Positions 1,064-38,223 of a stretch of 38,223 nt of DNA are shown in pieces; position 1 is the stretch's first letter; the number at the start of each line of letters is the position of its first letter. The notes under the pieces are model-generated. The model was not told the DNA's origin. It searched no databases and worked only from the letters and a program-made list of their open reading frames with translations. Source of the DNA: a virus; IMG/VR virus record IMGVR_UViG_3300042673_001309, positions 1 to 38,223 of that record; one strand, given 5' to 3'. Both the position numbers and the translations under genes were made by a program.

Positions 1064-1164
1064 TGCCTAAGCTCCTTGTTTCGTTCCTGTAGTAGTTTCA
1101 CCCGCATTTCCAACCAGTACACTTTGTCCTGGAGTTTGCGGGTTTTTTCGTGGTCGTCGGTCAT
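1009..1164 (-). CDS. short coiled-coil protein, 51 aa
   Basis: This small charged protein has a heptad-like central stretch, KLQDKVYWLEMRVKLLQERN followed by KELRQW, typical of a leucine-zipper-like coiled coil, and a basic tail. The start is chosen at 1164 because its ATG overlaps the stop of the helicase-loader-like gene in an ATGA junction; a longer reading from 1251 would overlap that gene by 90 bases. It sits directly downstream of the O-like and P-like replication genes, so an accessory replication role is possible, but nothing in the sequence proves it. Confidence 0.6.
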   Translation of the reverse strand: MTDDHEKTRKLQDKVYWLEMRVKLLQERNKELRQWITKLTNKTHPARRAGK

Positions 1165-1628
1165 CGCCTCACCTGAGCCGCTGCCAAATCCGCTAGAACT
1201 TGGTCCCGCGTCGCGTAGTGCTCCTCGCGGGTAATCTTGCCAATCTTGCATTGTTCGCCCGATTCAAGAACCCTGGCGATGTACGGCCGTAGCGAAACAT
1301 GGCTGTAGTTGCCCCTGGGTTCTTCTCGGTCTCGAATCATATCAACCAGTTGAGTTTTGCGAGCGTTGACGCGATCCTGCAAGACAACCGCTCGGAGGTG
1401 CAAAGCGAAATCGCCAAGTTCGTAGTATTGGGGCCTTGGTAGTTCGTCCTTGCTCCATCGATAGACAACGGAGATAGCCTCTTGCGTTGTAATGTCCTGA
1501 AGCGTCATTGCCCAAGCGTCGATCGTGCCGAGTACGCTGCTGGTCTCTTTGTTCAGGTAGGTGCCAAGGCTCGGAAAATGGATCATGGCGATTCTGGTAA
1601 AGAATTCTCGATTTTCAGATACTTCCAT
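1161..1628 (-). CDS. helicase-loader-like protein (G39P/P-type), putative
   Basis: This 155-residue helical protein begins ENREFFTRIAMIHFPSLGTY and continues with TIDAWAMTLQDITTQEAISV, VYRW. The spacing of aromatic residues and the W..L.....EA.S...RW pattern resembles phage helicase loaders of the SPP1 G39P type, small proteins that bring the host DnaB-type helicase to the origin. The match is to pattern and position only. It lies immediately downstream of, and overlaps by 14 bases, the initiator gene that carries iterons, the same order as lambda O then P. No helicase is encoded in the window, which fits a loader that recruits the host enzyme. It could also be a primosome protein of another family. 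Confidence 0.5.
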   Translation of the reverse strand: MEVSENREFFTRIAMIHFPSLGTYLNKETSSVLGTIDAWAMTLQDITTQEAISVVYRWSKDELPRPQYYELGDFALHLRAVVLQDRVNARKTQLVDMIRDREEPRGNYSHVSLRPYIARVLESGEQCKIGKITREEHYATRDQVLADLAAAQVRR

Positions 1629-2382
1629 TGTTCATGTCCTCGATGAGTTTAAGTGTCTTTTCTGCGTTGGTTAGCTTTCTGCCGGACTGGGTTCCTGCTG
1701 CTGGCCCGCCGACCGGCTTTAGCAAGCCTTGCCCGCCGTCATCGTGGCAAATGTTCTTCGCGCCGATCCTGATCGAAAACTCGATATCCTTTAGGGCCTT
1801 GGCTTCACCCCGTCGGAGTAGGTCCATAATCACCGCGTCGGCTTGAGCCTCTGGCATCCACTGCCCATCCTTGGCGAATCGGAAGTCCAACCATCTGACC
1901 CAATCCTTTTTTAGCCATTCGGGCAGGGTGTCTATATTTGAATACTCTTCTCTTCTCTTCTCTTCTCTAGGTAACGCACTGCTAACGCTGGAGGTAACGC
2001 TAGTAGCGTTACTTTTTGCCTTGTGCGTTGCTACCCTTTTTGCGGTCATTGCCCGTGTTTTTGCTGTTTTTCCGTTGTGCCGGTCGAAGTTTGGCAGGGT
2101 CAAGCTCTGCCCATCGTCGGACATCCACCCCGAAAGAATCATCGAGTCGCAAAAGCCGCTAACGCCAACTCTACGATCTAGTAACGCCTTGGTAACGCTG
2201 GAGGTAACGCTAGCACCGTTACCAACTGCGTTACCTTCCTGGGTCTGTTGATCGAACCACGCCCACACCCGAAGGAGCTTTCCGACCACTGCATCGGCAT
2301 CAATCCCGAGGGACTGAGCCATAGCCCAAACCTCCGGCTTATCGCTTGTCGCGGTCTCGAATTTAATCCAATCACCGGCCAT
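1615..2382 (-). CDS. replication initiator (O-like) with internal origin
   Basis: This 255-residue protein has an N-terminal domain (about 1-110) of the winged-helix type seen in phage replication proteins: GDWIKFETATSDKPEVWAMA, then VVGKLLRVWAWFD, a loop, then ILSGWMSDDGQSLTLPNFDR. A basic linker (TAKTRAMTAKRVATHKAK) and a C-terminal helical part (EWLKKDWVRWLDFR, ADAVIMDLLRRGEAKALKDI) follow. The linker regions contain two copies of the peptide SVTSSV (residues 58-63 and 128-133), encoded by iteron clusters 210 bases apart, so the gene very likely contains the origin it acts on, as lambda O does. ATG at 2382 follows AAGGA by ten bases. Upstream lies a structured non-coding element. Loader-like and coiled-coil genes follow. 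Confidence 0.7.
   Translation of the reverse strand: MAGDWIKFETATSDKPEVWAMAQSLGIDADAVVGKLLRVWAWFDQQTQEGNAVGNGASVTSSVTKALLDRRVGVSGFCDSMILSGWMSDDGQSLTLPNFDRHNGKTAKTRAMTAKRVATHKAKSNATSVTSSVSSALPREEKRREEYSNIDTLPEWLKKDWVRWLDFRFAKDGQWMPEAQADAVIMDLLRRGEAKALKDIEFSIRIGAKNICHDDGGQGLLKPVGGPAAGTQSGRKLTNAEKTLKLIEDMNNGSI
1945..1968. repeat. tcttc tandem repeat (homopurine on minus strand)
   Basis: Four full copies and one partial copy of tcttc run from 1946 to 1968, giving a pure purine strand on the coding side that encodes the charged peptide EEKRREE. It lies between iteron cluster A and an AT-rich stretch (1931-1944). A homopurine mirror-like tract beside iterons could help strand opening; that role is inference. 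Confidence 0.7.
1970..2013. repeat. iteron cluster A, inside the initiator gene
   Basis: Nine-base repeats of consensus ggtaacgct lie at 1970 (ggtaacgca), 1981 (gctaacgct) and 1993 (ggtaacgct), with an inverted copy at 2005-2013 (agcgttact). The start-to-start steps are 11, 12 and 12 bases, about one helical turn. Next to it at 1931-1968 lie an AT-rich stretch and about 4.6 tandem copies of tcttc, a candidate unwinding region. This layout repeats exactly 210 bases away. Confidence 0.75.
2158..2235. repeat. iteron cluster B, inside the initiator gene
   Basis: The repeats are gctaacgcc at 2158, agtaacgcc at 2180, ggtaacgct at 2191 and 2203, an inverted accgttacc at 2215-2223 and an inverted tgcgttacc at 2227-2235. 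The four central copies at 2180, 2191, 2203 and 2215 keep the same 11/12/12 spacing and orientation as cluster A, each shifted by exactly 210 bases (70 codons). Two arrays of phased initiator-binding sites within the initiator's own gene are a lambda-type origin design. Confidence 0.75.
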
Positions 2383-3680: not shown

Positions 3681-3842
3681 TTAAAACTTCCACCTAGCCG
3701 AAGCGATTTCGACCAGGAGCTCAATCATGCCTGCAAGCAAAGCCACGATAAGCAACGTCAGCAAGTACCATCCCTCGATCTGGTGCTTCCGCTCGATCCG
3801 GTCGAGTTGACTTTCGTCGTCCGGGGGTTGGTAGGGGTTCAT
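3681..3842 (-). CDS. small membrane protein starting MNPYQPP
   Basis: This 53-residue gene is missed by usual length cutoffs. It starts MNPYQPPDDESQLDRIERKH, then has one hydrophobic segment (YLLTLLIVALLAGMIELLV) and a short basic end. The NPYQ(S/P)P opening is typical of small planctomycete membrane proteins, the best host clue here (family knowledge). The ATG at 3842 overlaps the last base of the nuclease gene's TAA in a TAATG junction, so it is probably read by re-initiation. A charged helix before the membrane segment would sit in the cytoplasm. Function unknown. Confidence 0.75.
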   Translation of the reverse strand: MNPYQPPDDESQLDRIERKHQIEGWYLLTLLIVALLAGMIELLVEIASARWKF

Positions 3843-4237
3843 TACCAATACCTTTCCTTTGCGTGACCTTCGACAACCATTCGCCTGTTGATTGAACCCT
3901 GGAAAAAATTCTGTGTTCCTTCGGCGTCTGCGTAGTCCATATCTTGCTCCATTTCCGACTCGCTCTTATAAAGCACCGCCAGAAACCGCCCGTATTTGTC
4001 GCGCTTTGCCTTGGTCGATAGCTGGATCGTCTGGACGTAGATCGTCTGAAGGGGCTGTAGTACCTCCCATAGCCACGCCCTGGCTGCTTTGCCTGCTTCG
4101 GTTCGCATCTCCGGTGCGTCGATGCCGTAGAGCCTCATCGTTTGCTTAGTAAAGTTGCTAAAGCCCTGGTCGATAATCAGCTCCACGGTATCGCCATCGA
4201 CAACGCGGATTAGACTGGCTTTGTAGATGTAGATCAT
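3842..4237 (-). CDS. staphylococcal-nuclease-type endonuclease
   Basis: This protein of 131 residues covers the whole SNase fold. It shows VVDGDTVEL (metal-binding Asp14 and Asp16), RLYGIDAPE (Arg35, Asp40, Glu43) and KYGRFLAVLY (Arg84), all the residues used by the family for calcium-dependent cleavage of DNA or RNA, then RMVVEGHAKERYW, the usual final helix and strand. No signal peptide is seen, so it acts in the cytoplasm, perhaps in host DNA degradation or nucleotide salvage (inference). It overlaps the upstream gene by four bases and the MNPYQ gene by one. Confidence 0.9.
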   Translation of the reverse strand: MIYIYKASLIRVVDGDTVELIIDQGFSNFTKQTMRLYGIDAPEMRTEAGKAARAWLWEVLQPLQTIYVQTIQLSTKAKRDKYGRFLAVLYKSESEMEQDMDYADAEGTQNFFQGSINRRMVVEGHAKERYW

Positions 4238-37404: not shown

Positions 37405-37568
37405 TCGCCATCCTCCTTTCGTCGCTCGCGCAAAATCCTCATCGCTTCTGCATACCTAGAACCAAGAGCCTTGTCGTAGGTCTGCAACTTGATTCGTGAA
37501 AAATACTCGTTCGCCTTCCGGCCAGATACTGCACGCCGAAAGATTTTCCTTGCTTGCCTGATCTTCAT
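37401..37568 (-). CDS. small basic helical protein, 55 aa
   Basis: From the ATG at 37568 (ATGA overlap with the upstream stop), KIRQARKIFRRAVSGRKANE, YFSRIKLQTYDKALGSRYAE, AMRILRERRKEDGE: strongly basic and helical, so nucleic-acid binding is likely. It takes the place that the 91-residue gene has at the left end, directly upstream of the RuvC-like gene. A longer frame from 37700 would overlap the upstream gene. Confidence 0.6.
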   Translation of the reverse strand: MKIRQARKIFRRAVSGRKANEYFSRIKLQTYDKALGSRYAEAMRILRERRKEDGE

Positions 37569-38223
37569 TCGCCCACCTCCCTGAACTTTCGATAGAACAC
37601 CCATTTTTCGCCGTGAGCCTTGCCCCGCTGGATTGCTTCGTGTACCCGCATCCCGATCGTGAAATTGCATAGCCGGTATTTGCCGTCTCTGTCGGTCCAT
37701 TGCAAATCACCCGCTTGAATCGTGTCGGCGCCGTCGAGCGATTGCATCGAGCTTTTGATGTCGATAGGGTCGGATTGGTCGGCTCGATCCAATTCCGCGA
37801 TTGCGCAATAGCGATGGAATTGGCCGCAATCGGAAACGAATAGGTAAGCATTCCTCGGTCCGTGGTGGATCGATTTTAAGGCGCCTTTCGTCCCGTGCCG
37901 ATCATGACCGGGCGAAACAAATCGCACCGCATCGCCAACCGTCAGCGACTCACTCGAACTATTCGGGATTTCCGAAGGGTTGAATTCAGTTGTTAAGCAA
38001 TCCTTAATAACTGGCGTTCTGTTCATCGCATCATTCGCCGCCCAAATCGCGTTCATGGTTCGCTCGGCTAGCTTCTGCCCTTGGGTTGGCCCTTTGGGCG
38101 TTGTCTCTTTGGGGGCTTGCTCGACGGGATGATCATCATGCTTGACGCCGCCGAGCTTGTACGAAACCTGCTCACGCATCGAATGCCTTACAGTGATCGG
38201 AAAGCCTTCGATTTCGTTGATTG
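37565..38223 (-). CDS. SH3-like domain protein, 5' end outside window
   Basis: The reading frame is open to the window edge; an internal ATG at 38179 would give 204 residues, but INEIEGFPITVRHS upstream of it is also coding-like. The middle (SEIPNSSSESLTVGDAVRFV, SPGHDRHGTKGALKSIHHGP, VSDCGQFHRYCAIAELDRAD) matches the barrel part of the DUF3310 protein at 464-1063, whereas the N- and C-termini differ: here DLQWTDRDGKYRLCNFTIGM, RVHEAIQRGKAHGEKWVFYR ends the protein. So the same domain is used in two mosaic proteins. Function unknown. Confidence 0.65.
   Translation of the reverse strand, partial: INEIEGFPITVRHSMREQVSYKLGGVKHDDHPVEQAPKETTPKGPTQGQKLAERTMNAIWAANDAMNRTPVIKDCLTTEFNPSEIPNSSSESLTVGDAVRFVSPGHDRHGTKGALKSIHHGPRNAYLFVSDCGQFHRYCAIAELDRADQSDPIDIKSSMQSLDGADTIQAGDLQWTDRDGKYRLCNFTIGMRVHEAIQRGKAHGEKWVFYRKFREVGE

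Follow-up and report, generated by a model that had tools for sequence, protein, structure and literature searches.

A predicted phage replication origin inside its own initiator gene, with a purine tract found also in replication genes that carry other iterons

To our knowledge, the replication origins of most sequenced phages are not known, and the locus considered here raises the question of whether such an origin can be read within the coding sequence of a replication gene. The sequence analysed, hereafter the window, is one virus record taken whole (IMGVR_UViG_3300042673_001309, 38,223 bases), in which a predicted replication initiator gene (1615–2382, minus strand, 255 aa) carries two clusters of short repeats and a purine tract. 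The evidence supports a lambda-ori-type origin inside the initiator gene as the best reading of the window, and we put the probability that the phage origin is written inside its own initiator gene at about 0.88. The GC skew showed no inflection across the 38,223-base record, nearly all genes of which lie on one strand. Among its other genes, 3842–4237 (minus strand) encodes a staphylococcal nuclease-like domain (Pfam SNase, E=1.3e-6), while two genes close to either end of the record, 464–1063 and 37565–38179 (both minus strand), encode proteins with a common stretch similar to SEIPxSSSExLxVGD and may be related; the protein of 464–1063 has a DUF3310 C-terminus.

The assignment of the initiator gene is based on a profile match and an AlphaFold model. 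Residues 1–155 of the product match PHROG 2509, a replication initiation protein family (E=3.5e-59), and the protein is 39% identical to YdaU of the Rac prophage, while homology to lambda O was not detected (hhalign probability 7.8%); it is a relative of YdaU and not detectably a homolog of O. The model, although weak (mean pLDDT 65), suggests an N-terminal domain (approximately residues 1–120), a linker (121–143) and a C-terminal domain. Searches of the PDB with the initiator, by sequence and by fold, gave no significant match. Both repeat clusters lie under low-confidence segments of the model, and they are probably placed where the protein is unstructured, i.e. cluster B under the loop 47–64 and cluster A, together with the purine tract, under the linker 121–143.

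The first-pass annotation had described nine-base repeats in two clusters inside the gene with 11/12/12 spacing, and this description holds. Cluster A comprises three direct sites on the plus strand, at 1970–1978 (GGTAACGCA, which abuts the purine tract and is read by the gene as (S)ALP), 1981–1989 (GCTAACGCT) and 1993–2001 (GGTAACGCT), and an inverted site on the minus strand at 2005–2013 (AGTAACGCT), which forms a dyad with 1993–2001. Cluster B comprises plus-strand sites at 2180–2188 (AGTAACGCC), 2191–2199 and 2203–2211 (both GGTAACGCT), and two inverted, minus-strand sites at 2215–2223 (GGTAACGGT) and 2227–2235 (GGTAACGCA); a possible outlying, partial site (GCTAACGCC, plus strand) is found at 2158–2166. 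Iterons of the GGTAACGCT type thus number four in cluster A and five in cluster B, 11–12 bp apart. Cluster B had been regarded as an exact copy of cluster A at a distance of 210 bases, including the fourth, inverted site; the similarity and the inverted site are real, but the blocks 1971–2012 and 2181–2222, which lie 210 bp apart, are only 88% identical over 42 nt, and cluster B has five sites. Moreover, 210 bp is not a fixed distance, because relatives carry insertions between the clusters.

Next to cluster A lies the purine tract (AGAGA)n (1945–1968, minus strand, 24 nt), which codes for REEKRREE and is the sole pure purine/pyrimidine run of at least 16 nt in the 38,223-base record. Together with the adjoining AT-rich stretch (1931–1944) it forms the proposed opening site, and the segment 1931–1970 has the weakest predicted duplex stability among all 40-mers of the record. 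A TCTTC tract and an AT-rich stretch beside cluster A had been pointed out before, and both are present; the tract, however, emerges as a central element and not as a mere neighbor of the repeats. In the mechanism that we propose, the N-terminal domain would bind the iterons of clusters A and B, the assembled complex would melt the purine/AT-rich stretch 1931–1968, as in lambda, and the C-terminal domain would recruit the helicase via the overlapping downstream gene, as suggested by covariation.

A set of 80 related viral loci was assembled, most of which exhibit the same iteron in both clusters as well as the tract. In 35 of 45 family genes the core of the last iteron lies on the strand of the tract and precedes it by 4–5 nt, measured from the center of the core, and a dyad with the spacing of 1993–2001/2005–2013 (3-nt spacer) occurs 75 times in these 45 genes. 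The pattern running from the last iteron to the tract was matched in genome contigs of Pseudomonas, Achromobacter, Duganella and Pseudohongiella, as well as in a gammaproteobacterial MAG and a Verrucomicrobiales MAG. The iteron is not private to the window phage, but common to its family and to Rac ydaU. Likewise, the second array did not arise by a recent duplication in this phage alone, given that the two clusters occur throughout the family and also in initiators with other iterons. In three initiator genes (L029–L031), whose proteins are still related and whose tract is partly degenerate, CTAACG replaces GTAACG throughout both clusters, which suggests that the copies are kept alike by concerted change. 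Vibrio phage 1.211.A (L372) carries iterons of the GTCAC/GTGAC type at both cluster positions and a tract that is not purely purine, and PAN70 possesses the sites without a pure tract; because of these two cases the pure tract must be regarded as common, not universal.

Comparison of the relatives revealed a modular organization of the initiator. L006 is 34% identical to the window in the N-terminal domain, 95% in the C-terminal domain and 92% in the next gene, and has GGGGACA iterons; L007 shows the reverse arrangement (N-terminal domain 97%, C-terminal domain 27%), keeps the window iterons and is followed by a DnaB-like helicase gene. Where the C-terminal domains are similar and the N-terminal domains divergent, the iteron differs in all 7 gene pairs listed; where the N-terminal domains are similar and the C-terminal domains divergent, a crude match test finds the iterons to agree in 952 of 1096 pairs, and the mismatching pairs listed include shifted versions of one word. 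The overlapping downstream gene (1161–1628, minus strand, 155 aa), which occupies the position of lambda P, gave no PHROG match; it is 91–95% conserved in L006 and L008–L010 and 77–79% in L012–L017, all of which share the C-terminal domain of the window, and a DnaB-like helicase gene stands in for it where the C-terminal domain differs. Its position and covariation suggest a putative helicase loader. Iterons thus seem to follow the N-terminal domain, and the C-terminal domain the downstream loader or helicase gene. Since the iterons sit inside the DNA of the N-terminal half itself, the joint exchange indicates a module and does not prove recognition.

Could the repeats and the tract be features of the protein, i.e. 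repeated SVT motifs and the charged helix REEKRREE, which the DNA merely follows? SVTSSV does occur twice in the initiator, as had been claimed, and REEKRREE is common in the family, but the repeats are not reproduced when the protein is preserved: the gene contains 8 GTAACG cores, compared to a mean of 1.6 and a maximum of 5 in 2000 protein-preserving codon shuffles. Five cores fall within 60 bp, versus at most two in 500 first-order Markov resamplings of the window. Synonymous sites are frozen, with differences from 14 relatives in 7.3% of comparisons under the sites and the tract and in 46.4% elsewhere (the 14 pairs have one common reference and are not independent); relatives with the same protein but without repeats at synonymous sites, which the first-pass annotation had named as evidence against its origin, were looked for in this comparison, and the result came out opposite. 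Codon usage in the family genes is similarly skewed: valine of the SVT-type motif is encoded by GTT in 133 of 140 cases (193 of 712 elsewhere in the same genes), leucine in ALP is TTA in 41 of 41 (100 of 811) and arginine in the tract is AGA in 120 of 120 (45 of 593). Besides, a single DNA word yields different peptides depending on frame and strand (in L019 successive copies of the octamer GCGTTACC give ALP, RY and GVT, in three frames), and the peptides of the tract vary (REEKR, KERKG in GGAAA tracts, EEEEE in Rac) while the purines are constant. These tests show selection on the DNA as such: the conserved unit is a DNA word, not a peptide, and we find the protein explanation extremely improbable.

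It is also conceivable that the repeats are operator sites, through which the initiator or another phage regulator controls early transcription, with the origin located elsewhere. With their short inverted halves and 3-nt spacer, the dyads do resemble operator sites of dimers, and cluster B lies about 200 bp away from the tract; nonetheless, the sites are found within the gene and not at a promoter, the last of them abuts the tract in most relatives, and they change whenever the N-terminal domain of the gene itself changes, which makes this explanation quite unlikely, even though binding of the initiator may possibly serve both origin function and regulation, especially at cluster B. Another explanation concerns the tract only, which could be chiefly a short recombination seam for swaps of N- and C-terminal modules and not a melting site. 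Nucleotide identity to the window indeed switches at the tract in both directions, and the tract is common to unrelated initiators. A seam alone, however, would explain neither why this 40-mer is less stable than any other in the record nor why lambda has a purine run at the same place beside its iterons; we consider it unlikely as the chief role, and the roles in recombination and melting can coexist. An origin opened at the tract remains our preferred reading.

A scan with a 22-mer of (GAGAA)n extended the analysis beyond the family; among the matches listed, 80 loci were examined, 79 of which gave an ORF. Scanned as a whole set, 55 of these 79 ORFs fall in PHROG 9474, and of 30 less obvious ones that were scanned singly, 21 match a replication family, again among the matches listed; one of these 21 is a DnaC-like loader and not an initiator. 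Both scans combined place the tract in replication genes for 70 of the 79 ORFs among the matches listed (7 of the 55 fall among the 30; the other 49 are 48 members of PHROG 9474 and L082, which belongs to PHROG 2562). L139 carries the tract close to the N-terminal end of its ORF, which matches DnaC-like loaders, not an initiator. Among the listed GAGAA ORFs with enough upstream sequence, 50 of 70 exhibit a heptamer repeated beyond 60 codon shuffles (p<=0.05, uncorrected for multiple tests). These heptamers differ between ORFs (GCGTTAC, GCGTGAC, GCGGACA, CGTAACG, CGTCTAC and others) and usually form two clusters. In 76 of 80 loci among the matches listed, the purines lie on the coding strand; this fits an RNA–DNA hybrid, but both the constraint of coding and the fixed side on which the iterons lie are confounding factors.

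GGAAA, a unit of the same period and composition, was considered as a null control for the tract and dropped, since it was found in initiators too: at least 61 of 74 ORFs among the matches listed match PHROG 2562. GGAAA tracts therefore represent a second class rather than a control. In Lin1244_N initiators (L213, L216, L218, L220, L226 and others) they follow repeats of the GCAATGC/GCATTGC type. As for other periods, the period-4 contrast (GGAA) yielded just 31 stretches, for which at least 5 initiators were counted among 24 scanned ORFs, and the period-6 contrast (GAGGAA), which is biased by poly-Glu coding, consisted mostly of poly-Glu runs, with 7 of 75 in PHROG 9474 among the matches listed. 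The abundances of GAGAA, GGAAA and GAGGAA are not comparable, as the figures are for the matches listed.

At the level of sequence, the same layout recurs in many unrelated phages, with repeats that vary together with the predicted DNA-binding half and a purine stretch that stays constant. We tentatively propose, at somewhat less than even odds, that phage origins lying inside initiator genes commonly open at a tract with purines on one strand, in most cases with a 5-bp period (GAGAA or GGAAA), and that this element depends little on the iteron and the N-terminal domain in use; its conserved feature would be purine asymmetry on the RNA-like strand of the gene, not AT content, and it might act via a triplex or via a stable RNA–DNA hybrid formed by the transcript of the gene itself. 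We found no description of the tract, of its peptide or of polypurine/homopurine phage origins in the open-access literature; the iteron word GGTAACGC may already be described there. If the linker of replication genes can be recognized by the tract, and repeats specific to the initiator lie just upstream of it, origins could be read from the sequence in many phages.

In lambda, the neighboring A+T-rich region opens upon binding of O, and the origin is activated by transcription (PMC5043065); this region is required for unwinding, not for binding of O (PMC7466680). Its strand asymmetry has been noted, and it is an open question why it keeps purines on one strand although the duplex thereby becomes stiffer (PMC5043065). 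The phages described here are natural material for this question, because purine asymmetry persists in their GA-rich tract, so that strand asymmetry and AT content can be separated in tests.

How does the window compare to known systems? In Rac ydaU of E. coli, both clusters likewise contain GTAACG/CGTTAC sites, and a purine tract lies at the same place, but there the tract has a 6-bp period (GAGGAA) and codes for poly-Glu, and the next gene is the DnaC-like ydaV. The Rac prophage is reported to possess an active origin, oriJ (PMC3945230), which is assigned here to the prophage as a whole. Initiators of the epsilon15/phiPSA1 type share the (GAGAA)n tract and the layout, with GCGGACA as the iteron instead. 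In phage initiators of the Lin1244_N family (DUF4373), too, the linker contains a purine tract with a 5-bp period that is preceded by repeats, whereas the unit is GGAAA, the repeats are of other kinds, such as GCAATGC, and the N-terminal domain belongs to another family. In lambda, as in the window, iterons lie inside the initiator gene, between the two halves of the protein, and are followed by a purine-asymmetric, easily melted stretch (AAAAGAAAAAAGAAAAGA after iteron 4), and a loader gene overlaps downstream, for which the 155-aa gene of the window is only a candidate counterpart. The window differs in its sites (9 bp, 11–12 bp apart, versus about 18 bp at 20–24 bp), its second cluster within the region coding for the N-terminal domain, its GA-rich tract (~40% GC) and its protein, without detectable homology to O. 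From the earlier claim of a lambda O/ori design with a new iteron and a duplicated array, the design can thus be retained, without O homology, while the iteron is shared with the family and Rac ydaU, and the array is not peculiar to this phage. This design is already known from lambda; what goes beyond the first-pass annotation is the (GAGAA)n tract in replication genes with differing upstream iterons.
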